Source of the DNA: Novosphingobium sp. HII-3
GTDB lineage: Bacteria; Pseudomonadota; Alphaproteobacteria; Sphingomonadales; Sphingomonadaceae
Direction of reading: 5' to 3'
NCBI RefSeq assembly: GCF_002916655.1
Contig: NZ_PPSM01000025.1
Coordinates: 124,001 to 188,000 of the forward strand
Length of the DNA: 64,000 nucleotides
The notes beneath the pieces were generated by a model. It was not told where the DNA came from. It was given only the letters and a program-made list of their open reading frames with translations, and did not search any database. A program made the translations under genes and the position numbers. Positions 24,199-50,751 of the stretch are shown here, piece by piece (position 1 is the stretch's first letter; each line of letters opens with the position of its first letter).

Positions 24199-24912
24199 TT
24201 ATCGGCGGTCACCGGACTTTCGCGCTCCGCACGAAGGAGACAAGGGCGTTTTCTCGCTCAGCATCCTGGAAGCTCCGACGAATTTCGCTGGCGCCAGAGC
24301 GCGGTCGGTGAAGCGAACCTTGCACACGGCACCGCGGAAGAAGTTGACGCGGTTGTAGCGGACTCCCACGGAGGTATTGCCCGGCCCCTGCGGCGTGAAG
24401 CCTGAGACCTTCGCCTCACTCTCCAGCACCCCGTTGACATAGCTGCGGTACATCGTGCCGTCGAAAGTCTGCGCAACGTGGTACCAGCGGCCGATGGGAT
24501 GCAGCTTCTCCGGGTCGATCAGGACCTGCGAATAGCCCTTCCCCTTGATGAAGCTGTCCAGATACCAGGACTGGCCGGTCACACGGATCTCGAACAGCAA
24601 CCGGGTCTGGTTTGCCGGATCGTCGGAGGCGAGATGTAGCCAACGCTGTTCGAATGCACCGCCGTCGGGCCGGAACACCGCCTCCACGGTGAACTGGCGC
24701 GCCCCGGCGAGAGGATGACGGGGAAGATAAAGGGCGTCGTCCACCCCATCGAAGGCGATGGCGCCATCCTCGACCACCGGTGAGCCGATGACCTGAGTGG
24801 ATATCCCTCCAATCCGGTCGAGGCGGTCGAAATTCCACGTCTCCTGTTTTGCCTGCACGGAAGCAGGAAGGGCTGCCAGCGCCAGCACGCACATGCCCGG
24901 TATGCGATGCAT
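24199..24912 (-). CDS. Exported LamG-like (concanavalin-fold) protein
   Basis: The 237-residue precursor has a signal peptide (MHRIPGMCVLALAALPASVQA). Essentially one LamG/jellyroll domain follows: DGAIAFDGVDDALYLPRHPL, FTVEAVFRPDGGAFEQRWLH, WYHVAQTFDGTMYRSYVNGV and late VNFFRGAVCKVRFTDRAL. Such domains bind carbohydrate or serve as modules beside catalytic domains. Its start codon overlaps the stop of the large upstream gene (TGATG), so the two are translationally coupled and probably act together in the periplasm or on the surface. I see no catalytic motif and it may be a glycan-binding partner. It is the last gene of the leftward run. Confidence 0.75.
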   Translation of the reverse strand: MHRIPGMCVLALAALPASVQAKQETWNFDRLDRIGGISTQVIGSPVVEDGAIAFDGVDDALYLPRHPLAGARQFTVEAVFRPDGGAFEQRWLHLASDDPANQTRLLFEIRVTGQSWYLDSFIKGKGYSQVLIDPEKLHPIGRWYHVAQTFDGTMYRSYVNGVLESEAKVSGFTPQGPGNTSVGVRYNRVNFFRGAVCKVRFTDRALAPAKFVGASRMLSEKTPLSPSCGARKSGDRR

Positions 24913-27900
24913 CAGTGGTTCTCCCTGCCCAGCACGACGACATCGTTCCGGCGCGTGACCTCCGCCACGCCGGAAGTGACCCGGACATGCAGGGTTTCCG
25001 GCGCACCGGCCGGAACGGCAAGAGCGATCCGCGCCGTTTTGGGCGCCAGGTCCGTCGGCGCCTCAAGCGCAGGCACCGCAGCAGTGGCAAGCGCCCTGCC
25101 CTCGGGCGTCTCAAGCGTCACCGTGCCCGCAGGCGCCGCCACCGAACCGAGGCTGTGGACGGTCACCGTCACCCGGTTGCCCTTGCGCACGACGTCGTCC
25201 GTGCCGATGCCGAGGTCCGGGCGGTGCTCGGGCTGGACGGCCGCCTTCTCCTTCAGGCGGAAGGTCATGACCGTGGTGGTGCCCGGCGCGAAAGAGACCG
25301 GCAGGGAGCCGCTGCGCTCCAGCTCAATCTCACGGTGGGTCACGTCTCCCTGCGCGACATCGCCGCCATCAGGGGCAAGGCCCTGCGTCATCTCCCAGGT
25401 CCCGGCCACGACATTCCAGGTGCCCATCTCCGCATGCTGTTCGCGGGCGGTGGTGTTGTAGCCTATGACGGTGAACTGCTCGGGCGTCGCATCACGCACG
25501 AGAATCGCAACCTTCACGGCGCTTTCCGGATCGGCAAAACGCCAGCTCACCGCATTGCCCGGATAAGTCTGGTTCCGCTTGAGAGCGATGCCACCCAGCC
25601 GTTCGCGCTGCAGATATTCGTTGGGTGCATCGACACGGTCGCTCCACCAGTGGCCTTCGGTGTACATGTACATGTGCTGCGCCTTGTCGGAGATGCCATG
25701 GGCGTTGAGCGCCTCCAGCCACGCCTTGTCACCGGTTGTGTTCCAGGCTTCGAACCGGGCGAAGTCGTCACCGCTGCGCGCGCGGCGCAGCATGACGTCG
25801 CTCGCGAAGTCGCGCTTTCCCAGAAGGGTCAGCGCGTTTTCGTTAATCTCCGTCAGGGCGCCGAAGTTGTCCTTGCCGACGCGGCCGAGAATCGGGCGCA
25901 GGTACTTGTCGTCACCTGTGAAGCGCCACGCCGCCCAGGCCGACTGCATCGGAAGCGAGGCGCCGCCGCCGTCGCCGGGGCGTTCGGTATCATGCAGGAA
26001 GCTGATGTCGTTGGGGAATGTCCAGAGCCCGTCCGCCCCCTGCTTGCCATGCGCGAGCAGCCCGTCCATCAGCCCGGTGACCAGCCCGCGCGCGGTGGGA
26101 TCGGCGTTGTAGGTGCCTAATAGCACAGGCGTGTGCATGACGACGAAGCCATAGGGCTTCTGCCAGGCCCAGGGGTCATCCATATAGATCCTGCGCCCAC
26201 CGTACCAGCTGGACGAGATGTGCATGTGGCCCGCCGGGTTCGTGCGGATCACGCGGCCGAGCGCCTTTACAGTGGCCATCATCCGTTCGACCGCCTTGGG
26301 CTCCCCCCAATTGAGGTAGAGTCGCTCGGCGTCCGAATTGATGCCTTCCTCGTAGACGTGCAGTTCGTCGGTAGTGATGGCGCTGAGGCCGTCGACGATC
26401 ATTCCATTCTTGTAGACGGCGTCCGAAAGCGCCCGCAGCGAAGCGTTGATCTTGTCCGGATCGACGCCCATCAACGCCAGCCCCGGCCACTGCTGCGTCA
26501 GGTCGGTATCGTCGGAAATGCCGCCGCCGAAGTCGCCGTAGGGCACCTGCCTCTTGTCGATCCACCAGTTCACGAACTGGCGCGTCAGCTTCAGGTCTTC
26601 CAGCTGGCGGAAGGCCCAGAGCGGCATTCCGGCCGGCGGCTCGGGCTGGACGAAAGGCGGCAGCTGCGCTTCGGAATAACCGATGTCGGCCCAGTAGCGG
26701 CGGGCTTCCAGATTGCCGGGATCGACGCGCAGCAGGTCCGTGATGTCCCCGTAGAGCCGGCGGTAGAGCGCCGCCCGCTTGGATGCGGTGTGTTCCTCGA
26801 CGAGGAACGCCCAATTGTCCTTCACCTGATTGAAACGATCGGCGACGTGCTCCACCTTGGCCGCCTCCCGATCCTTGAAGATCATCTGCACGGTCATTCC
26901 GTCCAGCGACTTCGTGCCGAAATCCGGAGCGGCCGAGGCGATCGTGAGGTATAGACTATCGGCGGTCAGAATGCGGTCGCGCAGGTCCAGCCAGAGGGTG
27001 CGCGGCTGCCCGGGGCGGACCGAAACCTGCACGTCGATCAGATCACGGTCAGGCCAGATCGGATCCTTCACGCGGATGTCGAGAGGGATCACGCCCTTCG
27101 CATCGGGTTCCGCGTCGATCGGCGGCAGGACGATGGCGATGCCGTCCAGACCGTCGTGGACGTTCTCCCAGCCGTAGTTCCACGCCCGCGCGAGCGGACG
27201 GTCCGCAGGCGCATCGCCGAAGTTGGAGGGGATCAGGACATGCACGATCGGCAGAGCCCCTGCCGAGGGCTGCGCGGTGCCGGACCCGGCCGCGCTGCCT
27301 GCGCCGACGGCCGCCTTCACCCCGCTCGTCGGCAGCGCCACGACGGTCGCGCGTTCATGCGCGGGATAGCGCCCGGCGATATGGGCGTTGAGCGCCTCCA
27401 GCGCTCCCAGATCCGCTGCGGCATCGGTGCGTACGGTGTAGCTCAACTGGAACGTGCCCCTGGGAACGTCGCCGGCGTGGATGCCGTAGGCCCAGATCTC
27501 CTGGATCGGCTGTTCCTGCATCACGTTGGTGAAGCGCAGCGTCCCGCCCTTCCGTGTGGGTACGTCAGTCAGCGAACGCACCACGCCGCGCGGGCGCGTC
27601 GCCAGCTTCTGCCAGGCTGACCTGCCATCCGCCGACCATTCCAGCTCGCCATAGGCCGCGCCGCGGATTTCGACGCGGTTGAAGCTGGCATTCTGGGGCA
27701 GGGTCAGCTCGTAGGCCTTGCCGCCATCGACATAGACGTTCCAGTCGGGAAGCTCGAAATAGTCGTTCCGCCCCGGCAGGCCCGATCGGTTATAGACGCC
27801 GGGCCAGGTCGTCTCGGCGATGCCGTCCACCCCTTTCCACATCCATTGCTTGAGATCCTTGGCGTCGGCAAACTCGATCTTGCGTACGGTGGTGACAGGA

Positions 27901-28769
27901 TCGCTCAGCACCGGCGGGCTCTGCGTGTCCCAGCCGAAGCGGTGCAGCCAAGCCTTTCGCAGGTCGGGCCTGGACGCAACAGGCTTCACGTCCTGGCGGT
28001 TCGCCAGCTGCGCCACTTGCGCGCCGTCGAGCATGTGATCGTAGACGCGTACGTCGTCGAGATCGGACCCGCGCATGAAATTGTAGCGGCTCTGCACCTG
28101 ATGCGGGGCGATGACGCGGCCGGCCAGACCGAACTGGTCCAGCGCCATGTCGAGGTCGGCCGCCTGCGCCTTCGCGGCGACTTCCCGGCCGTCCCAGAAC
28201 AGCTTCACCCCGGCGTTCTCATCCCAGGCGAAGGCGATATGATGCCACGCGTCCGGAGACAGCTTTTCGGCAGAACCGGTCGTAGGCAATGTCCAGCTGA
28301 CGCGCACGCGCGAGAGGTTGGCATCGGTGACGAAGGCATCGAAGCCGCTGCCGTTCCAGTCGATCCGCAGGAACGCCATGTCCCAACTGGAATGATCCCC
28401 TGCGCTGGCGCGGAAGATCACGAAGGGGGCCTCTCCCACCGGCGTATGGCTGCGCCAGAAGAACGACAAGGTGCCCCGCTGCGCATAGATGTTGCCCGGT
28501 GCCTGCCACGCAACGTAGCCCCCGTCACTCCAGCGCCCCGCCCCGCCGATGGCGCCGTCGCTCACGACCGACACGTCGCTCCTGAAATTGGGGCGCGCCT
28601 CTCCGCCGGCGATGCTGGCGTCGAAACCGGTGTCGAGCGGCGCGTGAAAAAGAAGCCCGCTCGCCTCCTCGGCATCGGCCGTTGAAGCCGAACCGCAGAT
28701 GCCCGCGGCAACCAGGGCAATCAGCGATGTCTTCAGATAGCGGGTAATGCGCCGATCACGCTGCCACAT
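24912..28769 (-). CDS. Large exported multidomain LamG protein, candidate new polysaccharide-active enzyme
   Basis: The start at 28769 (MWQRDRRITRYLKTSLIALV) has ribosome site AGAGGA; an ATG nine codons upstream lacks one. The 1285 residues comprise a signal peptide and a LamG domain (about 35-255; LSFFWRSHTPVG, WHHIAFAWDENAGVKLFWDG). A discoidin-like beta region follows (about 330-440; FNRVEIRGAAYGELEWSADG), then more beta sequence to about 640. A long helical region (about 650-1090) holds DFGGGISDDTDL near 745, GHMHISSSWYGGRRIYMDD near 850 and EGHWWSDRVD near 1045. A CARDB-like C-terminal beta domain ends the protein. The acidic/aromatic motifs in the helical part look like an alpha/alpha-toroid lyase or hydrolase. 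I cannot name the family. The uronate setting supports a lyase or hydrolase, by inference. Confidence 0.7.
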   Translation of the reverse strand: MWQRDRRITRYLKTSLIALVAAGICGSASTADAEEASGLLFHAPLDTGFDASIAGGEARPNFRSDVSVVSDGAIGGAGRWSDGGYVAWQAPGNIYAQRGTLSFFWRSHTPVGEAPFVIFRASAGDHSSWDMAFLRIDWNGSGFDAFVTDANLSRVRVSWTLPTTGSAEKLSPDAWHHIAFAWDENAGVKLFWDGREVAAKAQAADLDMALDQFGLAGRVIAPHQVQSRYNFMRGSDLDDVRVYDHMLDGAQVAQLANRQDVKPVASRPDLRKAWLHRFGWDTQSPPVLSDPVTTVRKIEFADAKDLKQWMWKGVDGIAETTWPGVYNRSGLPGRNDYFELPDWNVYVDGGKAYELTLPQNASFNRVEIRGAAYGELEWSADGRSAWQKLATRPRGVVRSLTDVPTRKGGTLRFTNVMQEQPIQEIWAYGIHAGDVPRGTFQLSYTVRTDAAADLGALEALNAHIAGRYPAHERATVVALPTSGVKAAVGAGSAAGSGTAQPSAGALPIVHVLIPSNFGDAPADRPLARAWNYGWENVHDGLDGIAIVLPPIDAEPDAKGVIPLDIRVKDPIWPDRDLIDVQVSVRPGQPRTLWLDLRDRILTADSLYLTIASAAPDFGTKSLDGMTVQMIFKDREAAKVEHVADRFNQVKDNWAFLVEEHTASKRAALYRRLYGDITDLLRVDPGNLEARRYWADIGYSEAQLPPFVQPEPPAGMPLWAFRQLEDLKLTRQFVNWWIDKRQVPYGDFGGGISDDTDLTQQWPGLALMGVDPDKINASLRALSDAVYKNGMIVDGLSAITTDELHVYEEGINSDAERLYLNWGEPKAVERMMATVKALGRVIRTNPAGHMHISSSWYGGRRIYMDDPWAWQKPYGFVVMHTPVLLGTYNADPTARGLVTGLMDGLLAHGKQGADGLWTFPNDISFLHDTERPGDGGGASLPMQSAWAAWRFTGDDKYLRPILGRVGKDNFGALTEINENALTLLGKRDFASDVMLRRARSGDDFARFEAWNTTGDKAWLEALNAHGISDKAQHMYMYTEGHWWSDRVDAPNEYLQRERLGGIALKRNQTYPGNAVSWRFADPESAVKVAILVRDATPEQFTVIGYNTTAREQHAEMGTWNVVAGTWEMTQGLAPDGGDVAQGDVTHREIELERSGSLPVSFAPGTTTVMTFRLKEKAAVQPEHRPDLGIGTDDVVRKGNRVTVTVHSLGSVAAPAGTVTLETPEGRALATAAVPALEAPTDLAPKTARIALAVPAGAPETLHVRVTSGVAEVTRRNDVVVLGRENH

Positions 28770-28839
28770 AGTCGATCCTCTTCCCGGGCTGGGCATCAGG
28801 CGTGCCCCAACAAGTTATACGCTTGGTATCCGGCCCTGA

Positions 28840-32351: not shown

Positions 32352-32392
32352 CCGCTGATCCTCTTCCCGTTGTCTTGCTCGTGCCGGTCGTT

Positions 32393-35237: not shown

Positions 35238-36866
35238 TCAGAGGGCGCGGAACTTGAAATCGCGGAACCGGGCAGCCCCCTTCCCCGCAGCATAGAGGCC
35301 GGGCCGCAGCATGAGGAAGCCGCCACGGACATTGTGGTGATAGCCGGATGTCTCCATGCCCCGGTCGAAGCGCTTCCAGGTCTTCCCGCCATCGCCGCTG
35401 GTGTGGAACGAGACGATGTGGCGGTCATTGCGCACGCGCATCAGCATACGGCTACCGTGCGGATTGGCCGGCCGCCCACGCTCCAAGCCATACTGGTGTG
35501 TCACGAACTTCTGCCCGTCGAAGCCCAGACCGCAATAGAGCTGATGATCGTAGAACAGCAGCAGTCCGGCCGTGACGCCGGGATCGATCTCGATCTCGCA
35601 CTGGAACTCGTAAGCGGTATCACCCGCAATCAGCAGCAGCGGCGAGGAATTGGCGGGCGCGGTGCCGCTGGCCGTGAGATGCAGGCGCTTGTCCGCCACC
35701 CGGAGGCGCTTCGCTTCGTCCGGCGCGGGCTTGAAGAAATTCCAGCGCCGCCCGATCTCCAGCGTCGAGAAGTCATCGGAAAGCGGCATGCCGTGGGGTC
35801 CGGCCTTGCTGCCCCCCTTGGGTGCGGCCAGCGGTCGCGAAAGATCGCCGCCGTCCATGCGGAACCAGCCGTCGGCCGTCCAGGTCACCGGATCGAGCAG
35901 GGTCTGGCGGCCCAGCGTCCAGAAGTCCTTCTCGAACCCGTGGTAGACCGACCACCAGTCCCCCGCCGGCCCCTCGAAAACAGTCGCGTGCCCGCGCGAC
36001 CACCAGGCTTGCGATATGTCGGTGGTCCGCACGATGGGATTGTGCGGGCAGTTCTCCCAGGGACCGTGGATCGACCGGGATCGTGCGGCGATCACCATGT
36101 GACCCGTCGGTGGACCGGCGGTGCCACCCACCGCGGTCACGAGGTAGAAATATTCGCCGCGGCGCACGATCTTGGGACCTTCGGGAGAGAACCCCTCCAC
36201 TTCCCAATCGTCGGGATAACGCCATGGATCGTAGACATGCTCCACCTCGCCCACGGTGGAAAGGCCGTCCTGGGCAAGGCGGATGCGGTCCCCCCCTGAA
36301 AGGAACAGCCAGCGCGAGCCATCCTCGCCCACGGCGTGGCCCGGATCGATGTGATTGGGCAAACCGAGGCTGACCGGCTCGCTCCACGGCCCTTCCGCCT
36401 TATCGGCCCACACCACGTACTGCGCGTTCGGTGAGGCCTTGACCGTGAAATAGATGAAGAAGCGCCCGGCGTGCTTGCTGATGTCCGGCGCCCAGACCGA
36501 TCCAAGGTTCTTCTGCAGCGCCGCCGTGAGCGGCCGCCAGTTGATCAGGTCGCGCGAGTGCCAGACCACCAGACCCGGATAGGAATCGAAGGTCGAGAAG
36601 GTCATGTAGTAGTCCTTCCCGTCCTTCACGATGGTGGGATCGGGATGGTCGCCGGCCATCAGCGGGTTGAGGTAACGGCCGTCACCCAGATCCGCGATGC
36701 GCTGGTTGTCGAACCCGCGTCGATAGGGGGGTACAGGTCCGCTTACCCCGGCCGTTGAAGCGGTAGCCGGGCACTCGTCTTTCGCCGCGGCGCGCGAGGT
36801 CTGGACGCTGGCCAGCGACAGTGCCCCTATGCCCGCCGTCAACGCTTCCCGCCGGTCGAACTTCAT
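35238..36866 (-). CDS. Tat-exported glycoside hydrolase family 43 protein
   Basis: This 542-residue protein has a twin-arginine signal (KFDRREALTAGIGALSLASV). The five-bladed GH43 propeller shows all three acids: the base Asp in MAGDHPDPTIVKDGKDYYMT, the pKa-modulating Asp in GSVWAPDISKHAGRFFIYFT, and the acid Glu in WEVEGFSPEGPKI. A C-terminal beta-sandwich from about residue 355 (LSDDFSTLEIGRRWNFFKPA) is a GH43 accessory domain. The family includes beta-xylosidases and arabinofuranosidases. With xylose genes downstream, release of xylose (or arabinose) from oligosaccharides in the periplasm is likely. It is the first gene of the leftward operon. Confidence 0.9.
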   Translation of the reverse strand: MKFDRREALTAGIGALSLASVQTSRAAAKDECPATASTAGVSGPVPPYRRGFDNQRIADLGDGRYLNPLMAGDHPDPTIVKDGKDYYMTFSTFDSYPGLVVWHSRDLINWRPLTAALQKNLGSVWAPDISKHAGRFFIYFTVKASPNAQYVVWADKAEGPWSEPVSLGLPNHIDPGHAVGEDGSRWLFLSGGDRIRLAQDGLSTVGEVEHVYDPWRYPDDWEVEGFSPEGPKIVRRGEYFYLVTAVGGTAGPPTGHMVIAARSRSIHGPWENCPHNPIVRTTDISQAWWSRGHATVFEGPAGDWWSVYHGFEKDFWTLGRQTLLDPVTWTADGWFRMDGGDLSRPLAAPKGGSKAGPHGMPLSDDFSTLEIGRRWNFFKPAPDEAKRLRVADKRLHLTASGTAPANSSPLLLIAGDTAYEFQCEIEIDPGVTAGLLLFYDHQLYCGLGFDGQKFVTHQYGLERGRPANPHGSRMLMRVRNDRHIVSFHTSGDGGKTWKRFDRGMETSGYHHNVRGGFLMLRPGLYAAGKGAARFRDFKFRAL

Positions 36867-36975: not shown

Positions 36976-38490
36976 TCAGAGCGTGACACCACGCTTCCAG
37001 ATGCCGATGGCGCGCTCGTCGTTGCTTTCGTTGCGGGCGGGTTCGCCGCTGGCGATGGCAAGGATGCGGGTCAGCAACGCTTCCGCCGCGCCTGCCATGC
37101 CCAGTTCAAGCACTTGCCCGCCGTCGAAATCGATCCAACCGGCCTTGCGCTCGGCCAACGCATGATTGGACGCGATCTTCACCGTCGGCACGGGGCTGCC
37201 CAGGGGAGTGCCCCGCCCGGTCGAGAACAGGGTGATCGTAGCCCCTGCCGCTGCCAGCGCCGTAGTGGAAACGGCATCGTTTCCAGGCGCCTCCAGCACT
37301 GTCAGGCCACCCGGCGCCCTCCTTGCACAGATGCGCTCGCCATAGGCGATGACGTCCTGCACCGGGGCAAGGCCACCTTTCTGCACCGCTCCCAGCGACT
37401 TCTCCTCCAGTGTGGTGATGCCGCCCGCGATATTGCCGGGGCTGGGATTTTCCGAAACCGGTTCGCCGTGCTCGATGAAGTAGCGCTTGAACCCATTCAC
37501 CAGCTCGGAAAGCCGTTCGAACACGGTTTCGCTGGTGGCGCGTTCCAGCAGCAGGTTCTCCGCGCCGAAGATCTCGGGAATTTCGGTCAGGATGGCAGCG
37601 CCGCCCGCCTGAGTCACCGCATCCGCCATCAGCCCGATGAGCGGGTTCGCGGTGAGACCGCTCATCGCATCCGACCCGCCGCATTTCACACCCAGCCGCA
37701 GCTTCGACAGCGGCACTTCGGTGCGCTTGTCCGCCGCCATGAGCCCGATCAGTTCCTCCACCAGCGCTTCTCCGGCAGCGAATTCGTCACCGGCCGATTG
37801 GGCGCGCAGCACGCGCAGACGCTCCCGCCGATCCTCGGGGATGCGCTGCAGCAACTGCTCCAGCTGGTTCGATTCGCAGCCCAGCCCCAGCAGCAGCACG
37901 CCGCCTGCGTTCGGGTTGAGCGCCAGCGAGGCGATCACCGCCGCCGTACCTTCCAGATCCGCTCCCAGCTGCGAACAGCCGAAGGGATGGTTGAAGGCAT
38001 GGACACCATCGACGCCCGGCGCCTGCTTCAGATTGGCTCTGGCCGCGAGCCTTTCACCAAGACGGCCGACGCAGCCGACTGTCGGCAAGATCCAGAGTTC
38101 GTTGCGCGTGCCCACGCTGCCATCGGCGCGAACATACCCCCGGAAGGTGCGCGACGAGGCAGTGGCTTCAACACGCGGAGGAGAGCCGGTGAAGGCATAG
38201 ACCTGTTCGCCGGAAAGCGCGGTCCGGACGTTGTGGGTGTGCACATGCTCGCCCACCGCGATGTCGCACGTGGCAAGGCCGATGGGAGCGCGATAGCGGC
38301 GCACCGGAGCCCCTGCAGCGATCGGGGCGACAGCGAACTTGTGGCCTGCCGGGATCGCCTCGCGCAGCCGGATCGCCTCACCGTCCACCTTCACGTCCAC
38401 CCCCGCCTCCAGCGGTTGAAGAGCAACGGCGACGTCGTCTTCAGCGCCAATCTTCATTACGGACACAGGGGAAGCAAGAGTATCGACCAT
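36976..38490 (-). CDS. uxaA: Altronate dehydratase
   Basis: The start MVDTLASPVSVMKIGAEDDV at 38490 gives 504 residues. The N-terminal SAF-like domain (AVALQPLEAGVDVKV, AGHKFAVAPI, GEHVHTHNVRT) and the large C-terminal domain (GTRNELWILPTVGCVGRLGE, NHPFGCSQLG, GLGCESNQLE, VKCGGSDAMSGLTANPLIG, ENPSPGNIAGGITTLEEKSL, LFSTGRGTPLG) follow E. coli UxaA closely. The conserved cysteines suit its metal dependence. It dehydrates D-altronate to 2-keto-3-deoxygluconate in the galacturonate branch. It is divergent from uxaC-uxaB, with a perfect operator palindrome between. Confidence 0.95.
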   Translation of the reverse strand: MVDTLASPVSVMKIGAEDDVAVALQPLEAGVDVKVDGEAIRLREAIPAGHKFAVAPIAAGAPVRRYRAPIGLATCDIAVGEHVHTHNVRTALSGEQVYAFTGSPPRVEATASSRTFRGYVRADGSVGTRNELWILPTVGCVGRLGERLAARANLKQAPGVDGVHAFNHPFGCSQLGADLEGTAAVIASLALNPNAGGVLLLGLGCESNQLEQLLQRIPEDRRERLRVLRAQSAGDEFAAGEALVEELIGLMAADKRTEVPLSKLRLGVKCGGSDAMSGLTANPLIGLMADAVTQAGGAAILTEIPEIFGAENLLLERATSETVFERLSELVNGFKRYFIEHGEPVSENPSPGNIAGGITTLEEKSLGAVQKGGLAPVQDVIAYGERICARRAPGGLTVLEAPGNDAVSTTALAAAGATITLFSTGRGTPLGSPVPTVKIASNHALAERKAGWIDFDGGQVLELGMAGAAEALLTRILAIASGEPARNESNDERAIGIWKRGVTL

Positions 38491-38508
38491 GCCCCGCCAA
38501 TATCGCAT

Positions 38509-38522
38509 TGCCAGCGCTGGCA
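38509..38522. promoter_or_regulatory. Perfect palindromic operator TGCCAGCGCTGGCA
   Basis: This 14-base perfect palindrome lies in the 80-base gap between divergent uxaA and uxaC. Its AGCGCT core and LacI-type CG centre match the site before the GH43 gene. One bound repressor could control both directions. The regulator may be that at 41456 or 28927. Confidence 0.65.
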
Positions 38523-38570
38523 CAACTCGGTAATCGGCTGTCAAAGCCACTGACGCCCGGGAGTATCCTG

Positions 38571-40028
38571 ATGCCCAACCTGTCGTTGCACCCCGACCGC
38601 CTGCTCCCCGCAGACCCGACCACTCGCGCGATCGCCCGGGAGCTTTACGCGCAGGTGGCCGGACTGCCGATCATCAGCCCGCATGGCCACACAGACCCGG
38701 AGTGGTTCGCCACCGATGCGGCCTGGACCAACGCGACCGAGCTGCTGCTGGCGCCTGACCATTACCTGTTCCGCATGCTCTATTCGCAAGGCGTGGACCT
38801 CGACGCGCTGGCGGTCCCCCGTAAGGGTGGCGTCGTGCCGCAAACCGACCCGCGTGAGGCGTGGCGCGTGTTCGCCAGCCACTGGCACCTGTTCCGCGGC
38901 ACGCCGTCGAGCATGTGGCTGCCGCATGTCTTCAGCGAAGTCTTCGGCATCGACGTCGCGCTGGATGCGGACACGGCAGACCACTATTACGATACCATCG
39001 GCGAGGCGCTCGCCTCTCCCGCGTTTCGCCCCCGCGCCCTGTTCGAACGGTTCGACATCGAACTGCTCGCCACCACGGAGGGCGCTGGCGACGATCTGAA
39101 GCACCACAAGGCAATCCGGGCCTCGGGCTGGAAGGGCAAGGTCGTCACCACGTACCGGCCCGACTCGGTGATCGACCCAGAGCATGACAGCTTCGCACGC
39201 GACATTGCCCGCTTCGCCGAGCTTTCGGGCGAGAATGTCGAGACATGGTCCGGCTACCTGGCCGCCCACCGCAAGCGCCGGGCCGACTTCCGCGCCATGG
39301 GGGCGACGGCGACCGACCACGGATTCCTCACGGCACGCACCGCCAATCTCTCGACGGCGGAGTGCGAAGCGCTGTTTGCAAAGGTGATGCGCGGGGCCCA
39401 CGGGCAGACGGGGCCGAGCGCCGAGGAGGCCGAACTGTTCCGCGCGCAGATGCTCACGGAAATGGCGCGGATGAGCGTGGAGGACGGCATGACGATGCAG
39501 ATCCACCCGGGCGCCACCCGCAACCACAACGCCCGCCTCTTCGCCAGCCATGGGCGGGACAAGGGCGCGGACATCCCCCGCGCGACCGAGTACGTCGAGG
39601 CGCTGCGCCCCATGCTGGACCTGCTGGGCAACGAACCGGACCTGAAAGTCATCCTCTTCACACTGGACGAGACGACGTATGCCCGCGAACTGGCGCCGCT
39701 CGCCGGGCATTATCCGTGCCTGAAGCTCGGCCCGGCGTGGTGGTTCCACGATAGCCCCGAAGGCATGCGCCGCTTCCGGGAGATGACAACCGAGACAGCG
39801 GGGTTCTACAACACCGTGGGCTTCAATGATGACACGCGCGCCTTCCTCTCGATTCCGGCGCGCCATGACGTCGCGCGGCGGATCGACTGCGGATTCCTCG
39901 CCCGCCTGGTTGCCGAACACCGGTTGCAGGACTGGGAAGCCGCGGAGCTTGCACAGGAGCTGACCGTCGGACTGGTGCGCAAGGCGTACGGCCTGGAAGC
40001 GCCGGTGCGCGTTGCGGAACCGGCATGA
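38571..40028 (+). CDS. uxaC: Glucuronate/galacturonate isomerase
   Basis: The ATG at 38571 follows GGGAG by about seven bases, giving 485 residues. This is the amidohydrolase-like UxaC family. PIISPHGHTDPEWFATD (near residue 32) carries the metal-binding HxH, with LLAPDHYLFRMLYSQGVDL, VTTYRPDSVIDPEH, MQIHPGATRNHNARLFASHG and LKLGPAWWFHDSPEGM. It isomerises D-glucuronate to fructuronate and D-galacturonate to tagaturonate in the cytoplasm. It overlaps uxaB by ATGA and is divergent from uxaA. Confidence 0.97.
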   Translation: MPNLSLHPDRLLPADPTTRAIARELYAQVAGLPIISPHGHTDPEWFATDAAWTNATELLLAPDHYLFRMLYSQGVDLDALAVPRKGGVVPQTDPREAWRVFASHWHLFRGTPSSMWLPHVFSEVFGIDVALDADTADHYYDTIGEALASPAFRPRALFERFDIELLATTEGAGDDLKHHKAIRASGWKGKVVTTYRPDSVIDPEHDSFARDIARFAELSGENVETWSGYLAAHRKRRADFRAMGATATDHGFLTARTANLSTAECEALFAKVMRGAHGQTGPSAEEAELFRAQMLTEMARMSVEDGMTMQIHPGATRNHNARLFASHGRDKGADIPRATEYVEALRPMLDLLGNEPDLKVILFTLDETTYARELAPLAGHYPCLKLGPAWWFHDSPEGMRRFREMTTETAGFYNTVGFNDDTRAFLSIPARHDVARRIDCGFLARLVAEHRLQDWEAAELAQELTVGLVRKAYGLEAPVRVAEPA

Positions 40029-41455
40029 CCCGGCTCTCCCAGGCAGCTCTGACCGCTCTGCCCGAAGGCATCGCAGCGCCACGGTATGACCGCTCAACCG
40101 TCACGAAGGGCGTCGTTCATTTCGGCCCCGGCGCCTTCCATCGCGCTCATCAGGCGGCTGCGTTCGACACCCTGCTGGCGCACGATCCGCGCTGGGGGCT
40201 GACCGGCATCAGCCTCAATTCGCGCGGAGTGGCCGACGCCCTGAACCCACAGGACGGGCTCTACACGCTGGCGCTGCTCGATCTGGAGACGAGCTACCGT
40301 GTCATCGGGTCGATCGGACGGGTACTGACCCGGGATGATCCGGAGGCGATCCTCACGGCACTGGCGCATCATGATACCCGTGTGATCTCCTCCACCGTGA
40401 CGGAGAAAGGATACTGTCTGAACGCCGACGGCGCTCTGGATCTTGCGAACCCGGCCATCGCGACGGACCTCGAGGCGGCCAGAGCCGACGACTGGACGCC
40501 GGTCTCGTTCACCGGCTGGCTGGTTCGGGGCTTCCAGGTCCGCCGCCACGCCGGGTTGCCGGGCGTAACGGTGCTGTGCTGCGACAACTTGACGGACAAC
40601 GGCCGCAAGCTGGAAGCGGCAGCCCTCGCATTGGCAGGCGAGATCGATCCAGACACCGCGCGATGGATCGCCGACAACGTCGCTTTCCCCAATGCCATGG
40701 TCGATTCCATCACTCCCGCCACCGACCCGGCCCTGCGCACGCGCGTGGCGCACGAGACCGGCCTTGAAGATGCCTGGCCGATCCAGCGCGAACGCTTCAC
40801 CCAGTGGGTCATCGAAGACCGCTTCGCCGGCGAGCGTCCGGCGCTCGACGTCGCGGGCGTCACCTTCGCATCCGACGTGCGTCCGTTCGAAACTGCCAAG
40901 CTGCGCCTGCTCAACGGCGCGCACAGTTCGCTGGCCTATATCGGGCTGGGCATGGGCCTTGAAACGGTGGCCGAAGCCATGGCCGACAGCACTCTGGCCG
41001 CTTTCGTCGAGCGGCTGATGCGCGTGGATATCGCGCCATCGGTCACCCCGCCACCCGGCCTCGATCTCGACGGCTACATCTCGGACGTGCTGGCACGGTT
41101 TCGCAATCCCGCAATCCGGCACCTGCTCTCGCAGATTGCCTGGGACGGTTCGCAGAAATTGCCTTACCGCCTGCTCGACACCGTGCGCGATGCCCTCGCC
41201 GCCGGACGCAGCGTGGAACGGCTGGCGCTGCCCATCGCGGCATGGCTGCGCTTTCTGGTGAGGGCAGCGAACGAGGGCCGCACGATCACTGACCCGCTCG
41301 GCCCGATGTTGCTGGCGCGCGCCGGAGACTGGCGCAGCGTTCTGGCCTTGCGCGAGGTCTTCGGCGATCTCGGCAGCGAGCCGCGTTTCGCACATGCGGT
41401 GGCGGCCGGACTGGCCTCGCTCGAGGCGGGACAGCGGGCACCGGCAGGCGTCTGA
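40025..41455 (+). CDS. uxaB: Mannitol-dehydrogenase family uronate reductase (tagaturonate/fructuronate reductase)
   Basis: The 476-residue polyol dehydrogenase-type protein starts four bases inside the uxaC stop. It has the NAD-binding N-terminus VVHFGPGAFHRAHQAAAFDT, the middle VLCCDNLTDNGRKLEAAALA, DSITPATDP, FTQWVIEDRFAGERP and the active-site helix ETAKLRLLNGAHSSLAYIG with the catalytic Lys. It reduces tagaturonate to altronate (UxaB) or fructuronate to mannonate (UxuB). The family does not separate these cleanly. Because UxaA is adjacent and no UxuA is present, the altronate route is preferred. It ends exactly where the convergent LacI gene ends. Confidence 0.9.
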   Translation: MTRLSQAALTALPEGIAAPRYDRSTVTKGVVHFGPGAFHRAHQAAAFDTLLAHDPRWGLTGISLNSRGVADALNPQDGLYTLALLDLETSYRVIGSIGRVLTRDDPEAILTALAHHDTRVISSTVTEKGYCLNADGALDLANPAIATDLEAARADDWTPVSFTGWLVRGFQVRRHAGLPGVTVLCCDNLTDNGRKLEAAALALAGEIDPDTARWIADNVAFPNAMVDSITPATDPALRTRVAHETGLEDAWPIQRERFTQWVIEDRFAGERPALDVAGVTFASDVRPFETAKLRLLNGAHSSLAYIGLGMGLETVAEAMADSTLAAFVERLMRVDIAPSVTPPPGLDLDGYISDVLARFRNPAIRHLLSQIAWDGSQKLPYRLLDTVRDALAAGRSVERLALPIAAWLRFLVRAANEGRTITDPLGPMLLARAGDWRSVLALREVFGDLGSEPRFAHAVAAGLASLEAGQRAPAGV

Positions 41456-42557: not shown

Positions 42558-43556
42558 TCAGGCGAAACCCACCGTCCGCGTCCAGGCGCGCCATAAGTCC
42601 GGCCAGGCTTCCACCGGCTTGCCGATCGCCCGGCGCAGGCCGAAGCCGTGGCCGCCATTGGCGAAGAGGTGCGTTTCCACCAGTATGCCCCGTACCTTGA
42701 GCGCCGCGCGCAGACGCACGCTGTTCTCCACCGGCACGACATCGTCGTCCTCGGCGTGGACCAGGAAGTGCGGCGGTGCATCGGCCGGCACTGTCTGGTC
42801 GGGTGAATGCACCGCTGCGTCCTGCAGCGACGGCGCGGGGCCGAGCAGCAGATTGCGCGATCCGGCGTGGGCGATCGCCGGATCCATGCTCACCACCGGG
42901 TAGATCGGCGCGGCACAGTGCGGCCTGGCGGACAGACCGTCCGCCGCATCCACCGGATCGTAGACCCTGGCGGCAAAGCGCGTGCTGAGATCCGCGCACA
43001 GGTGTCCACCCGCCGAAAAACCCATCGCCGCGACTCTCTCCGGATCGATGGCGTATTCCTTTGCGCGATGCCGGATCAGGCGCATGGCGCGCTGCGCATC
43101 CGCAAGGGCGGTGTCGGCTCCGCTCGACCAGCCCTCACCGGGCAGGCGGTAGAACAGCACGAAGGCGGTGAAGCCGCGCGCGGTGAGCCAGCGGGCAATC
43201 TCGTAGCCTTCCTTGTCGACCACAATCCAGCGATAGCCGCCGCCCGGCGTGATCATCACCGCCGCGCCGTTAGGCCGGTCGGGCCGGAATACCGCAAGGC
43301 GCGGACGGGTGATGCCGTAAACGGCGCGATCGGTCACGAGGGCGTCGGCGGAGCGTTCGTTCACCGTCTCGGTCAGCGCTGCCTTGAGCCTGGCCGGCGG
43401 GCCCTTCGGCCACAGGTCGATCGTCTCGTGCGGTTGAGGCAGTCCGGGCGGCAGCGCGTTCGAAGCGGTCGGCGGCGGCGTCTGTGCCTCCGCCCGCGCG
43501 GCAAAGCCGGCAGCGGCAAGGGAACCGGCGATGAGGGTCCTGCGATCGAAGTCCAA
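42558..43556 (-). CDS. Tat-exported alpha/beta-hydrolase esterase (acetyl-xylan-esterase-like)
   Basis: The TTG at 43556 follows GAAGGGAG by six bases and gives 332 residues; the ATG-like frame start at 43613 lies inside a terminator. The signal reads DFDRRTLIAGSLAAAGFAAR, twin-arginine type. The hydrolase core has an oxyanion-hole motif VMITPGGGYRWIVVDKEGYE, nucleophile GFSAGGHLCADLS (Ser near 180), an acid in HAEDDDVVPVENS and catalytic His in ANGGHGFGLR. This subgroup removes acetyl or similar groups from xylan and pectin-type glycans. It lies downstream of the TonB receptor. Confidence 0.85.
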   Translation of the reverse strand: MDFDRRTLIAGSLAAAGFAARAEAQTPPPTASNALPPGLPQPHETIDLWPKGPPARLKAALTETVNERSADALVTDRAVYGITRPRLAVFRPDRPNGAAVMITPGGGYRWIVVDKEGYEIARWLTARGFTAFVLFYRLPGEGWSSGADTALADAQRAMRLIRHRAKEYAIDPERVAAMGFSAGGHLCADLSTRFAARVYDPVDAADGLSARPHCAAPIYPVVSMDPAIAHAGSRNLLLGPAPSLQDAAVHSPDQTVPADAPPHFLVHAEDDDVVPVENSVRLRAALKVRGILVETHLFANGGHGFGLRRAIGKPVEAWPDLWRAWTRTVGFA

Positions 43557-43574
43557 CGACGGCTCCCTTCGAAA

Positions 43575-43615
43575 AGAAAAAATGCGTGGCCCGCCGCAAA
43601 GGCGACGAGCCACGC
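43575..43615 (-). terminator. Terminator after the TonB receptor gene
   Basis: GCGTGGC (43584-43590) and GCCACGC (43609-43615) form the outer stem, with further pairing inside (GCCGC/GCGAC region). On the reverse strand it is followed by ATTTTTTCTTTTC. It separates the receptor from the esterase gene. Confidence 0.8.
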
Positions 43616-43630: not shown

Positions 43631-46522
43631 TCAGATCTTTGCGCGCGCGCCGAACAGGATCGTGCGTCCGAAGTGGTTGTTCTCGTAGTTGCGGTTCGCG
43701 TAGATGTCGTTGGTGCGGTAGCGATACTCGTCGGTCAGGTTATTGCCATCGATCGAGAGTTCCAGCCATTCGGTAGCCTTGTAGCGGATCGCCGCATCAA
43801 CGCTGGTGTACGAGCCGTACCCTTCGAAGATGTTGCCGGTCGCGCTGGTGGCGTCGCTGAAGGGCCCGCGATAGCTGACCGAGCCGCGGATCGAGAACTT
43901 GCCGTCGTCGTAGTAGAGCGTCGCGTTCCAGGCCTTCTCCGACACACCCAGGAGCGTGTTGTTGTAGATCGCCGAAACGCCGGTGAGACCGCAGGCGCCC
44001 GTCGTGGGATTGCGAGTGCAGGCCGTGACCGCCGGGCCGGTGATCTGGTAGTCGGCGCTGCTGTCGATGAAGGTCGCGTTGCCCTGGAAGCCGGTGTTGC
44101 GCAGGATGCCCGGCAGGAAGGTGAAGGGCATCTGCAGCGCGATCTCGACACCCTTGAGCGTCGCACCCTCGCCGTTGACCTGCGACGACACCACGTATTC
44201 CTGATTCGGATCGTAGTTGAGGTAGGCAGGCGTGCTGGTGCCCAGCACGTCACGGCCCAGCCCGAGCTGCGGCAGAGTGGCGGTATACGTACCAGCGACC
44301 GGGAAGCTTTCGATCTTCTTGATAAAGCCCGCGACCGAAACCAGGGCCTGCGGCGCGAAGTACCACTCGACCGAAGCGTCGAAGTTGGTCGCACGGAACG
44401 GGTCGAGGAACGGATTGCCGAAGGTCACGCGATAGTTGAAGCCATCGACGGAGCCGCCCGGATTGAGGTTGCCGAGCGAGGGCCGGGTGATCACCTTGGC
44501 GATCGCGCCGCGCACGATCACGTCGGAGTGCGGGTAGAACGCCAGGTTCATCGACGGCAGCCAGTCGTCGTAGGTCCGCTCGACAGTGGCCGCCACCCCG
44601 GCGGTGTAGCCGGTCGACGTCTGCTTGGTGTGGGCGTAGCGGATGCCGGCGTTGCCCGCGTACTCCAACCCGAAGATCTCGCCCTTGACGTCGAACTGCA
44701 CGTAGCCGCCCGAAGTCTCTTCGCGCACGCGGCGATTGTTGCCTAGGTCCTCCATGGCGGTGCGCCCGTAGAGGTTGGTGTAGTCGGCCGCCTTGTCGAT
44801 GTCGGCCACCAGCCACGAACTGGTGGTGCCGCCGGGCTGGCCCGCGTCGCCAAGCTCGATCAGGCGCGAGAAGTCGGCCAGGACGGGCAGGCCGTAGACG
44901 CTGGACGAACAGGTCACCTGGCCCAGGATCAGGTCGGGCTGACCGTTCGCGGCGCAGGCGGCGGTATCACGCATGAACAGCTGAGTGCGGAAGTCGTAGC
45001 GACGCCACACGGCGCCTGCCTTCACTGTGAAGCCTTCCGTCATGTCCCATTCGGTGCGCAGCTGCGCGGTCTTGAACTGGTTCTTGACGTAGGAGGGACG
45101 GTCGCGAATTTCGGCAAGCTGGAAGTTCGCCGGGTCAGTGACGTCGAGGTCGTAGCTCAGCACCGGCGACTTCATGTCGCTGTAGTCGAAGCTGAAGCCG
45201 TTGGCGTTGCGGTTGTCGTAGGCGAACGTCGTCTCGACCGGGATGTCGGCGTCAGACTGCGAGAAGCCGCCGAGCAGGGTGAAGCGGAAGGTGTCGCTGA
45301 CGTCCTGCTCCCAGGTCGCGCCAACCTGGTAGAACTCGGTTTCCGACTTGCGCAGGTAGCTTTCAGTACGGACCCAGGCGTTGTTGTACGTACCGCCGAT
45401 CATTGTGCCGGTATCGTCGTAGACCGGGTTCACCAGATTAAAGCGACGCTCGTTGGAGCGGGCGAGAACCTCGAGCCACTGTTCCTTGCGGTCTTCCTTG
45501 AACGAGGAATAGAGCCCGTCGATCGAGATCTTGGTGCGGTCGGTCGGCTCGAACTGGACCGAGCCCGTGAGGCCCAGGCGGCGGCGGTCATGTTCGACCT
45601 TGCCGTAGCGCGGGATGCGGGCGTGGAACGAAAGCGCGGCAGCGTCGCAGGCTGCGGACGGACGATAGCCGCCGCCCGAGTTCACCGGGCTGCCCCCCGT
45701 CGGACCCACGTCCGAGTAGAAGCAAGGCGTTCCGTTGACCGAGTTGAAGTAAGCCTGCGCCCAGCGCACGGTATTGTTGCCGGTTTCAAGCGTATCGGTA
45801 TGCGAATACGCAGCCGACAGGTTGACGCCGAAGGTGCCTGCATCGTTCCTCCAGGACAGGAGGCCGGCGGCGCGGGGGCCGACATTGTCCGACAGGTCGT
45901 TGTACGAACCCTGGAGGTTGAGCACCCCTGTGAACCCCGCCTTGCCCGCAAGCGGATTGCCGGTGTTGAGGTCGACCACGGCGCCCAGTGATCCTTCATC
46001 AAGGCTGGCTTCGGCGGTCTTGTGGACGACAAGGCTGCTGAACAGTTCCGAGGCGAAGACGTTGAAGTCGAACGCGCGGTCGCGGTTGGCGGATGCGCCG
46101 TCCGAGCTGGTGGCGATCGTTTCAAGGCCGTTCACGCGCACGCGGGTGAACTGCGCGCCAAGACCGCGCACGGTGATGGCACGGCCCTCACCGCCGTCGC
46201 GCTGGATCGAGATGCCGGGAATGCGCTGCAGCGATTCGGCAAGGTTCTGGTCCGGAAACTTGGCCATGTCCTCGGCGACGACGGCATCGACGGCCGAGAT
46301 CGCTTCGCGCTTCACATTGAGCGCCGCTTCGAGCGACTTGCGGAAACCGGTGACGATGATCTCGTTCGCGGTGGCCGACTGATCTGCCGTTGCGGCATCG
46401 GCCGCAGCCTCGCTCACTTCCTGCGCCAGCGCCGCCTGCCCAAGTGTGCTCGATGCGGTCAGAGCGCTGCCTGCGAACAGAGCAGCCTTCAACAGCGTAA
46501 TTCCGGTAACATGCCTGCGCAT
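43631..46522 (-). CDS. TonB-dependent outer-membrane receptor (Caulobacter-type glycan receptor)
   Basis: The 963-residue receptor has a signal peptide, a TonB box-like start and a plug. The plug includes ANEIIVTGFRKSLEAALNVK, AVVAEDMAKFPDQNLAESLQ, RIPGISIQRDGGEGRAITVR and GLGAQFTRVRVNGLE. A 22-strand barrel follows, ending NNHFGRTILFGARAKI. The KFPDQNLAE...GLG pattern is the Caulobacter TIGR01782 group, linked to uptake of plant sugars and oligosaccharides. A gut-type SusD partner is not present. Two operator-like sites lie upstream. It is the probable entry gate for oligouronides in this locus. Confidence 0.95.
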   Translation of the reverse strand: MRRHVTGITLLKAALFAGSALTASSTLGQAALAQEVSEAAADAATADQSATANEIIVTGFRKSLEAALNVKREAISAVDAVVAEDMAKFPDQNLAESLQRIPGISIQRDGGEGRAITVRGLGAQFTRVRVNGLETIATSSDGASANRDRAFDFNVFASELFSSLVVHKTAEASLDEGSLGAVVDLNTGNPLAGKAGFTGVLNLQGSYNDLSDNVGPRAAGLLSWRNDAGTFGVNLSAAYSHTDTLETGNNTVRWAQAYFNSVNGTPCFYSDVGPTGGSPVNSGGGYRPSAACDAAALSFHARIPRYGKVEHDRRRLGLTGSVQFEPTDRTKISIDGLYSSFKEDRKEQWLEVLARSNERRFNLVNPVYDDTGTMIGGTYNNAWVRTESYLRKSETEFYQVGATWEQDVSDTFRFTLLGGFSQSDADIPVETTFAYDNRNANGFSFDYSDMKSPVLSYDLDVTDPANFQLAEIRDRPSYVKNQFKTAQLRTEWDMTEGFTVKAGAVWRRYDFRTQLFMRDTAACAANGQPDLILGQVTCSSSVYGLPVLADFSRLIELGDAGQPGGTTSSWLVADIDKAADYTNLYGRTAMEDLGNNRRVREETSGGYVQFDVKGEIFGLEYAGNAGIRYAHTKQTSTGYTAGVAATVERTYDDWLPSMNLAFYPHSDVIVRGAIAKVITRPSLGNLNPGGSVDGFNYRVTFGNPFLDPFRATNFDASVEWYFAPQALVSVAGFIKKIESFPVAGTYTATLPQLGLGRDVLGTSTPAYLNYDPNQEYVVSSQVNGEGATLKGVEIALQMPFTFLPGILRNTGFQGNATFIDSSADYQITGPAVTACTRNPTTGACGLTGVSAIYNNTLLGVSEKAWNATLYYDDGKFSIRGSVSYRGPFSDATSATGNIFEGYGSYTSVDAAIRYKATEWLELSIDGNNLTDEYRYRTNDIYANRNYENNHFGRTILFGARAKI

Positions 46523-47226: not shown

Positions 47227-48783
47227 TCACACCCCCGGCTGCACGTAGGGCGCCTTCGCCCAAAGCTCCCGTTCCCAGCGGCGGGGGTCGTTCACCACCC
47301 GCGATCGCGCATCGAAGACCATGGTTGCGCGATTGGGCAGGCGATAGGACGACCATTCCGCCAGCCCGGGGCTGCCTGTCCTGGCCAGCCCGGTGAAGGC
47401 CGTCATCATCGTAGTGCTCAGGCCGCGCGCGACCGCATCGGTGCCCGAATAGCTGCCCGGTGCGTCAAGGGTACCGAAGACATAGGGGATGTCGTCGGTG
47501 TGCGCGGCGCCCCGCAGCGGGTCGCGCGGCGAACTGCGGTCCAGCTGATAGACCCACGTCGCCGTTGCCCCCGCAGCAGCGCGTTCGTCGGCTTCGATCA
47601 CCTGCCCCGGCCAGGAGCGGCCCGCGGTGGTCGCCGCGTAGTAGACCTGCTCGGGCGTCCAGGCCGGTTCATGAAGGCGATACTGCTCCACCACCCAGAC
47701 TGGATCGAGGTCTATCTTGATCTCGGGCTGGATGCGCGCGGCAAGATTGCTCCAGTCGAGACCCTTCAGCTTCGGGCCGCGGGGATCGAGGAAGGCGCGG
47801 GTTTCGTCGCGCACATTGCCCAGGATCATCGGAACACTTAGCGATTGCGGCGCGGCGTCGGGCCAGAAGGGATGACGCGGAAGGTTGGTCATGTCGAGTA
47901 CCGGCCCGAAATAGACGCTTCCGCCCAGTATCGGATCGACCGCCGCCAGCCCTTCCCTCAGCCGCTCAATCGGCATGGTGCGCAGGCCTTCGACATCGGT
48001 TTTCAATGCCGCCAAAAAAGCCTGCGTGCGCGCCCAGGCGTGCGCAGGTCCGCTGGCCTGAACCTGCTGGCCGCTCATCGTCGCAGCACTGTGGAACAGC
48101 CCCCTTGCCGCAGGCATCGCCATCAGCGTGGCGATCTTGGCGCCTCCGCCGGATTGGCCGAAGACCATGACCCGCGCAGGATCCCCACCGAACGCCTCGA
48201 CATGCGCCCGCACCCATTGAAGCGCCAATATCAGGTCCAGCTGGCCAAGGTTGCCGCTGTCCGAGTATCGCGTGCCGAACGGCTTGAGCCAGGCATAGCC
48301 CAGCGCATTCAGCCTGTGGTTGACCGTCACCACCACGACGTCGCCGTCCGCCGCCAACCTGCCGCCGTGAGTCAGCGGGTCCGTCACCGAACCAGTGGTG
48401 TAGGCCCCGCCGTGGAAGTACACCATGACCGGCCGTTTCGCCCGAGGATTGATCTCTGGTGTCCAGACGTTGAGATAGAGGCAATCTTCCGCCTGTGCTT
48501 CATCCCCCAGCGCCCGCTGCGGGCAGATCGGCCCGAACGAGGTGGCCTGAAGGGCAGAGCCGTGCCACGGCTCCGCCACGGGCCGGGCGAAGCGTTCGGC
48601 GCGGGCGTAGCGGATACCCTTGAAGGCGAAGACGCCGTTTTCGGTGAGGCCCGCATAGCGGCCCGCTCGCGGAGCCTTGGCGGTGCGGGCAAGAACCGGC
48701 AGCGGCGACGCCAAGGCGGCGGCCGACCCAGCGGCCGTGGCAACAAGGGTGCGGCGGGTGAAATTGGCGTACGTCATGTTCAA
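47227..48783 (-). CDS. Tat-exported type-B carboxylesterase
   Basis: The 518-residue carboxylesterase/lipase has a Tat-like signal (YANFTRRTLVATAAGSAAAL). Family marks are GVFAFKGIRYARAERFARPV, EDCLYLNVWTPEINPRAKRP then VMVYFHGGAYTTGS (oxyanion hole), nucleophile VMVFGQSGGGAKIATLM (Ser near 207), and the late His in GAAHTDDIPYVFGTLD. It cleaves carboxylic esters. In this locus it may remove methyl, acetyl or feruloyl groups from pectin or xylan fragments. It is 111 bases downstream of kdgK on the same strand and convergent with the cupin gene, four bases away. Confidence 0.9.
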   Translation of the reverse strand: MNMTYANFTRRTLVATAAGSAAALASPLPVLARTAKAPRAGRYAGLTENGVFAFKGIRYARAERFARPVAEPWHGSALQATSFGPICPQRALGDEAQAEDCLYLNVWTPEINPRAKRPVMVYFHGGAYTTGSVTDPLTHGGRLAADGDVVVVTVNHRLNALGYAWLKPFGTRYSDSGNLGQLDLILALQWVRAHVEAFGGDPARVMVFGQSGGGAKIATLMAMPAARGLFHSAATMSGQQVQASGPAHAWARTQAFLAALKTDVEGLRTMPIERLREGLAAVDPILGGSVYFGPVLDMTNLPRHPFWPDAAPQSLSVPMILGNVRDETRAFLDPRGPKLKGLDWSNLAARIQPEIKIDLDPVWVVEQYRLHEPAWTPEQVYYAATTAGRSWPGQVIEADERAAAGATATWVYQLDRSSPRDPLRGAAHTDDIPYVFGTLDAPGSYSGTDAVARGLSTTMMTAFTGLARTGSPGLAEWSSYRLPNRATMVFDARSRVVNDPRRWERELWAKAPYVQPGV

Positions 48784-50675: not shown

Positions 50676-50751
50676 GTGTCCTATCCCGTCAGTATGTGTC
50701 TTGCCCACGTCCCTCTCTTATTCCGGGACGCGGGCCTGAAGACAGTGCCGC

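Follow-up and report, generated by a model that had tools for sequence, protein, structure and literature searches.

We describe a pair of overlapping genes in a 64,000-nucleotide stretch of DNA from Novosphingobium sp. HII-3 (contig NZ_PPSM01000025.1, positions 124,001 to 188,000; hereafter the window), which encode a large and a small protein with LamG domains, and we propose that the large one represents an undescribed family of exported carbohydrate-active enzymes, acts on pectin oligogalacturonides, is probably exo-acting, and feeds the isomerases KduI and UxaC. We hold this reading as a whole with middling confidence, and its parts differ in strength: the large protein very likely works in the pectin pathway; it is probably an enzyme; and exo release of monomers is put forward more tentatively. 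A pectin enzyme is the simplest reading because a conserved, exported-looking toroid is combined with binding-type modules, and because esterases, a TonB-dependent receptor, uronate branches and, upstream in xanthomonad loci, a PL10 gene accompany it. The presence of both KduI/KduD and UxaC/reductase/dehydratase fits a yield of unsaturated as well as saturated monomers.

A conserved protein family with a predicted toroid core

The preliminary description of this DNA, made from the sequence alone, had reported a LamG protein of about 1285 residues with a discoidin-like part, an uncharacterised helical region and a CARDB-like end. The protein is real: the likelier ATG of its gene (Table 1) is codon 10, at position 28769, which gives 1285 residues, and a signal-peptide-like N-terminal segment, called by eye, follows directly after it. 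Both motifs quoted in that description are present, the toroid motifs being DFGGGISDDTDL, TDELHxYEEG and EGHWWSDRVD. The modules were also borne out, LamG by a Pfam match and the other two by fold matches obtained with VIA-align (VIA). Laminin_G_3 scores 39.3 bits in the large protein and 72.4 bits in the small one (residues 55-209), above the Pfam gathering score of 27.6; the CBM32-type region reaches Z 9.7 to 7blg (root-mean-square deviation, rmsd, 3.3; 121 residues aligned) and Z 9.5 to 5xnr; and the CARDB-type end reaches Z 10.4 to 2l0d (95 aligned), with a Pfam CARDB match by sequence in one of 37 relatives (E 4.5e-4) and none in the window's own protein.

AlphaFold2 modelled residues 275-1294 with a predicted local distance difference test score (pLDDT) of 83.5, and residues 690-1190 with a pLDDT of 93.2 and a predicted template-modelling score (pTM) of 0.93, the latter as an (alpha/alpha)6 toroid followed by a beta-sandwich; the helical region singled out in the preliminary description is therefore predicted, by AlphaFold2 and VIA-align, to be a toroid of a carbohydrate-enzyme type. 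In the VIA-align comparison of residues 690-1190, GH76 structures score Z 13.8-16.4 (at best 277 aligned, rmsd 4.0), GH88 13.9-14.6, GH105 13.2, and GH47 and sugar epimerases about 12-13, with the Listeria protein 3k7x in the same range (Z 15.0); sequence identity to the nearest carbohydrate-enzyme folds, GH76, GH88 and GH105, is 5-11%. Foldseek E-values are weak, GH127 reaching 7e-4, and toroid-type polysaccharide lyases (2x03, 7bjt) are weakly matched by the toroid plus beta-sandwich. No polysaccharide lyase stands among the best 50 VIA-align matches, which excludes nothing, and a viral structure library gave no match to the core at E 0.001 or better. Since helical models may reach such Z values without kinship, as VIA-align warns, and since the Foldseek E-values are weak, we claim for the core the predicted toroid fold and not membership of a family.

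Laminin_G_3 is the only Pfam match in either protein (matches up to E 1), and neither matches NCBIfam at E 0.001. Searched against Pfam without their LamG part, the 37 relatives gave the one CARDB match, one chance-level match and nothing else; the 78 core sequences gave chance-level matches only against NCBIfam; and sequence searches of the PDB with the protein and two profiles gave nothing or chance-level matches only. Neither the large protein nor the 37 relatives match the Pfam models of GH88/GH105 (PF07470, over cut-off), GH76, PL1, PL9, PL10 or PL22. The helical region is thus uncharacterised, as had been stated, in that it has no convincing family in Pfam or NCBIfam. We recognised no description of the large protein in the literature on the protein or its context, a survey that did not cover subscription papers or CAZy. 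The core lies outside every Pfam and NCBIfam model, and by sequence the family is apparently undescribed and new at family level; a pectin-processing exported enzyme is a familiar category, of which this is a family-level variant and no new category.

One scan of genome contigs found relatives encoded at 76 genome loci, with 45-85% identity over the best segment, which excludes chance as the origin of the large open reading frame. These loci belong to Sphingomonas, Novosphingobium, xanthomonad genera, Niveispirillum and others, mainly Sphingomonadaceae and Xanthomonadaceae; three further plasmid records, one of them from Asticcacaulis, also hold the family, and the core of a Novosphingobium capsulatum plasmid copy is the same as that of locus L047. 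Whole-genome searches, all within the window's own phylum, found the family in 8 of 149 genomes of its taxonomic family and in 6 of 398 genomes of the phylum (even draws, own genome included). A second, more distant member, 46-48% identical to the window's protein, is present in three genomes (L111, L113 and L114 in G614, G602 and G715), and a similarly distant member is the only full one in two others (L112 and L115 in G762 and G125).

Across the 78 core sequences, 35 polar residues are kept at 97% or more. Those that are invariant include D762, D763, D765, Q769, D810, E811, H813, Y815, E816 and N820, as well as R838, N853, D911, H916, D1053, R1054, Q1063, R1064, R1066 and R1074, and they cluster in GGGISDDTDL, TDELHxYEEG, HWWSDRV and LQRERLGG. 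We read this pattern as enzyme-like, and it would suit a lyase and a hydrolase alike, two activities that fold and sequence cannot tell apart here. The motif SDDTDL resembles WDDTLMM of GH105; we dropped this link because hhalign saw no relation between the core profile and GH105 (probability 0.9%, with six close sphingomonad sequences on the GH105 side) and because the catalytic residues of GH88 and GH76 presumably map near residues 810-817, not 762-765, the catalytic Asp-Asp pair of GH76 being placed there by interpolation from VIA aligned ranges only. The conserved residues also bear on the possibility that the large protein is a non-enzymatic, exported glycan-binding or scaffold protein of a pectin uptake system. 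Several binding-type domains, a helical core with no convincing family match, and a mean column identity no higher in the core than over residues 275-1294 (65% vs 66%) would agree with such a role; runs of invariant acidic residues in a toroid would, however, be unusual for a mere binding fold, and we consider a scaffold quite improbable.

Conserved pectin and uronate context

Neighbouring genes were counted in the 54 of 76 loci that are well flanked (at least 21 kb), 40 of them alphaproteobacterial and 14 gammaproteobacterial, by tblastn at 35-50% identity depending on the gene and over half its length; diverged genes may escape these counts, and related species contribute loci that cannot be treated as independent. 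Within about 10 kb, 44 of the 54 have one or more of seven uronate/pectin markers (KduI, KduD, KdgK, UxaABC and PaeX-like), and counts for each gene are given in Table 1. The 14 gammaproteobacterial loci contain KdgK (13), a TonB-dependent receptor (13), a PaeX-like esterase (11), an FAA-like protein (10) and KduI (1). In 9 of the 76 loci, all xanthomonad, the large gene is closely preceded on the same strand by a gene for a PL10 pectate lyase, with a gap of -12 to 1001 bases; a tenth PL10-like match (L049, 22% identity, downstream) was left out of this count. The 611-kb plasmid NZ_CP140001.1 of Novosphingobium capsulatum carries a pectin cluster with a LamG pair (L085), in which the pair comes after a GH43, an MFS and one hypothetical gene, with kduI, kduD and other uronate genes beside it.

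The KduI/KduD/KdgK-type genes had been described as sitting beside the large protein. They exist, and in many species the locus is a uronate pathway, but in the window a distance of 20-23 kb, which includes a pentose-catabolism cluster and other genes, separates them from the 5' end of the large gene. That cluster (28927-35223, minus strand) encodes a LacI regulator, an aldose epimerase, a sugar transporter, an SMP-30 lactonase, a D-xylose dehydrogenase (by NCBIfam) and an FAA protein; because its genes are hardly found in the related loci (four of six in none, one in two and one in one of the 76), it was probably inserted, and it does not seem to belong to the uronate cluster that it sets apart from the LamG pair. 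The absence of any known lyase from the window was upheld for the open reading frames scanned with Pfam, none of which belongs to a known lyase family; the scan did not cover every open reading frame of the window.

The earlier idea of a uronate-glycan enzyme keeps its enzyme-type fold and its uronate loci, and we refine it to pectin through the PL10 gene, the PaeX-like esterase and the dehydratase. Alternatively, the substrate may be a different part of pectin (rhamnogalacturonan or arabinan side chains) or a uronate glycan other than pectin, for example glucuronan or arabinogalactan protein. GH43 genes near 14 of the 54 loci would suit such a substrate, as would the window's uronate reductase, which scores higher as fructuronate than as tagaturonate reductase and would fit glucuronate, and UxaC, which handles both uronates. 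The PL10 gene that closely precedes the large gene in nine loci, the PaeX-like esterase and the altronate/galactarate-type dehydratase speak for pectin oligogalacturonides instead, and we judge the alternative substrate to be unlikely.

A conserved stop/start overlap in Novosphingobium

The preliminary description was correct in that the small gene begins within the stop codon of the large one, the last base of the TGA being the first base of the ATG. In 10 of 10 related loci with a small gene next after the large one, an in-frame start codon (ATG or GTG) overlaps the large-gene stop, and the coupling is therefore conserved. As a general binding partner, however, the small protein did not hold up: its gene occurs in 11 of the 76 loci and adjoins the large gene in 10 of the 11, all Novosphingobium, to which it is almost confined. 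In many other sphingomonad loci its slot is occupied by a DUF885 gene (identity checked with Pfam for one member), which was found in 32 sphingomonad loci (for example, L068:13935-15383) and is downstream of the large gene in most; gene order across loci comes from simple open reading frame calling, with strand sometimes miscalled.

Pectin enzymes and KduI in genomes with the family

We searched 49 family-holding genomes, the window's own and 48, not including that of L004, chosen by hand via the 76 loci, for standard pectin enzymes. Matches over cut-off were found for GH88/105 in 25, the PL22 profile in 15, PL10 and GH28 in 18 each, and PL1 in 8 (4 of them at 47 bits or more); PL9 was found in none of the 49. 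Both GH88/105 and PL22 are missing from 24 of the 49, and nine of these, all xanthomonads, have a strong PL1 or PL10 match, because of which unsaturated oligomers would be expected there, and the monomer-releasing enzymes searched for were not found. It is these genomes, with an endolyase and none of the searched monomer-releasing enzymes, that argue for an exo mode. In 12 of the 49, including the window's own, we found none of GH88/105, PL22, PL10, GH28, PL9 or a convincing PL1; the search did not extend to PL2, PL3 or rhamnogalacturonan lyases, and a weak PL1 match in the own genome (30.2 bits, at C88) was discounted solely for its low score. The locus itself shows KduI in 10 of the 24 genomes and in 7 of the 12 (own window counted).

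The same 12 genomes, with KduI in the locus of seven, would also agree with a lyase that cuts polymeric pectin in an endo or processive manner and is the main depolymerase of genomes without a standard one. Polymer binding would be a fitting task for the LamG and CBM32-type modules, and PL8 and PL17 show some likeness to the toroid plus beta-sandwich; a second depolymerase would, however, be partly redundant behind the PL10 gene in the nine xanthomonad loci, the search left out PL2, PL3 and other families, and the species concerned may live on fragments released by others. We regard a polymer lyase as rather improbable.

All 8 family-positive genomes among the 149 are KduI-positive, vs 57 of 347 in a wider draw. 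In ten family-positive genomes of a second taxonomic family (of which 23 of 53 KduI-positive genomes were examined), KduI is on the same contig at a distance of 7 to 62 kb; in the window's own taxonomic family, it lies within 23 kb in six of 15 family-positive genomes and is more distant or on a different contig in the others. Among 80 KduI-positive genomes, 25 contain the large-protein family, 25 contain GH88/105 over cut-off and 12 contain both; 13 of the 25 with KduI and the large-protein family have no GH88/105.

Several observations weigh against an exported exo-acting pectin enzyme. In the fold comparison, non-glycosidases score alike (7tkv, a Brucella DsbH-domain protein, Z 15.8; the transaldolase AprG, about 14), the Foldseek listing also holds PL8, PL17 and GH127, and likeness between a predicted model and known folds would not by itself show function. 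The ends of the putative inner helices are not more conserved than those of the outer helices (0.657 vs 0.652), the profile comparison with the six GH105 sequences gave nothing, and LamG modules occur more often on enzymes that act on polymers. None of the seven markers occurs in 10 of the 54 loci, the reductase leans towards glucuronate as noted above, a search confined to the locus revealed no KduI in 14 of the 24 genomes, and one family-positive genome (G284) lacks it. Finally, the family and GH88/105 co-occur above expectation in the 80 KduI-positive genomes (odds ratio 3.0, P 0.04); 42 of these genomes contain neither. Because the two co-occur, the large protein is no plain GH88/105 substitute, and a simple replacement is not supported.

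Comparison with known systems and proposed pathway

The model has the (alpha/alpha)6 toroid in common with GH76 alpha-1,6-mannanases (6y8f, 4d4c), from which the large protein differs in its uronate/pectin context, its LamG, CBM32-type and CARDB-type modules and its low sequence identity. GH88/GH105 unsaturated uronyl hydrolases (2fv0, 3wiw and 4xuv; Z 14.6, 14.4 and 13.2) have the same toroid, a fold common to many other families, and would fill the same supposed pathway slot upstream of KduI; unlike them, the large protein is much bigger and has neither a PF07470 match nor a profile likeness to six sphingomonad GH105 proteins. PL22 oligogalacturonate lyase and the PL9, PL10 and PL1 pectate lyases would likewise feed unsaturated uronate to KduI/KduD, PL10 being a neighbour of the large gene in nine xanthomonad loci, yet the large protein matches none of these families in Pfam, and the folds of PL22, PL1 and PL9 (propeller, beta-helix) differ from a toroid. 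In the pectin loci of Xanthomonas for carbohydrate utilization with a TonB-dependent receptor (CUT loci; XCC0120), the receptor lies beside pectin methylesterase and pectate lyase genes and is induced by polygalacturonate, and the accessible text of that description mentions no LamG/toroid protein (PMC1790865).

In the pathway that we propose, the TonB-dependent receptor would import oligogalacturonides, and the two esterases would remove their ester groups. The acidic glycan or oligosaccharide would be bound by the LamG and CBM32-type modules of the large protein and cleaved by its toroid, which carries invariant acidic, His, Tyr and Arg residues; this would be the exo step from oligogalacturonides to monomers, in or outside the periplasm. 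Unsaturated monomers would pass to KduI/KduD and saturated ones to UxaC, the reductase and UxaA, and both branches would converge on 2-keto-3-deoxygluconate for KdgK. The small LamG protein of Novosphingobium would probably be made in step with the large one via the stop/start overlap and add glycan binding.

Genes of the window

Coordinates are collected in Table 1. The FAA-fold protein is commoner than KduI across the well-flanked loci (37 vs 29 of 54), and its substrate may be an unsaturated or keto-deoxy uronate. The uronate cluster also contains a small, exported-looking cupin protein (46764-47222, plus strand), which was found in 4 of the 76 loci; KdgF was considered for it and rejected, with no NCBIfam match and four PDB matches that bear other names.

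Table 1. Features of the LamG gene pair and the uronate cluster in the window, with the number of well-flanked loci (of 54) in which each neighbour was found.
Feature	Position	Strand	Basis	Loci (of 54)
Large LamG protein gene	24912..28796	-	Open reading frame and translation; 1294 codons counted from first ATG	
LamG (ConA-like) domain, residues 91-261	28014..28526	-	Pfam PF13385 Laminin_G_3, E 9.2e-10	
CBM32/discoidin-type beta-sandwich, residues ~303-439	27480..27890	-	VIA fold match; no Pfam match	
(alpha/alpha)6 toroid, residues ~725-1071, proposed catalytic	25584..26624	-	AlphaFold2 model and VIA	
Beta-sandwich after toroid, residues ~1083-1184	25245..25550	-	DSSP of AlphaFold2 model	
CARDB-type C-terminal domain, residues ~1191-1294	24915..25226	-	VIA fold match	
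TGATG stop/start overlap of large and small gene	24910..24914	-	Sequence	
Small LamG protein gene	24199..24912	-	237 amino acids; signal-peptide-like N-terminus; Pfam PF13385, E 5.9e-20	
GH43 glycosidase	35238..36866	-	Pfam, E 2.3e-85	14
Altronate/galactarate-type dehydratase (UxaA-like)	36976..38550	-	Pfam GD_AH_C and GD_AH_second; below NCBIfam cut-off	10
Uronate isomerase UxaC	38508..40028	+	Pfam; NCBIfam NF002794, 574 bits, over cut-off	20
Mannitol-dehydrogenase-family uronate reductase (fructuronate/tagaturonate reductase-like)	40025..41455	+	Pfam; below NCBIfam cut-offs	6
Esterase, best match pectin acetylesterase PaeX	42558..43613	-	NCBIfam NF041902, 308 bits, below cut-off of 550	20
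TonB-dependent receptor	43631..46522	-	Profile matches	34
Type-B carboxylesterase	47227..48783	-	Pfam, E 8.5e-75	33
PfkB sugar kinase, KdgK-type	48895..49920	-	Below NCBIfam cut-offs	36
KduD dehydrogenase	49920..50708	-	TIGR01832, over cut-off	29
KduI isomerase	50752..51588	-	NF002091, over cut-off	29
FAA-fold, 2-keto-4-pentenoate-hydratase-like protein	52975..53784	+	Weak matches	37
Major facilitator superfamily (MFS) transporter, closest to 2A0114 (galactonate-type) subfamily	53806..55152	+	Pfam; below NCBIfam cut-off	27

Significance for pectin use in sphingomonads and xanthomonads

We tentatively suggest that the family may amount to a new CAZy-level family of multimodular toroid enzymes, which would release unsaturated and saturated galacturonate in exo mode from oligogalacturonides and play the role of PL22, PL9 or GH105 in sphingomonads and xanthomonads. 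Genomes that contain KduI and no usual enzyme releasing unsaturated monomers present an annotation gap, for which the large-protein family is a candidate. If the new-family reading is true, the pectin pathway would be complete without PL22, PL9 or GH105, and, if the activity is true, pectin use would be predicted more readily across many Sphingomonadaceae and Xanthomonadaceae.

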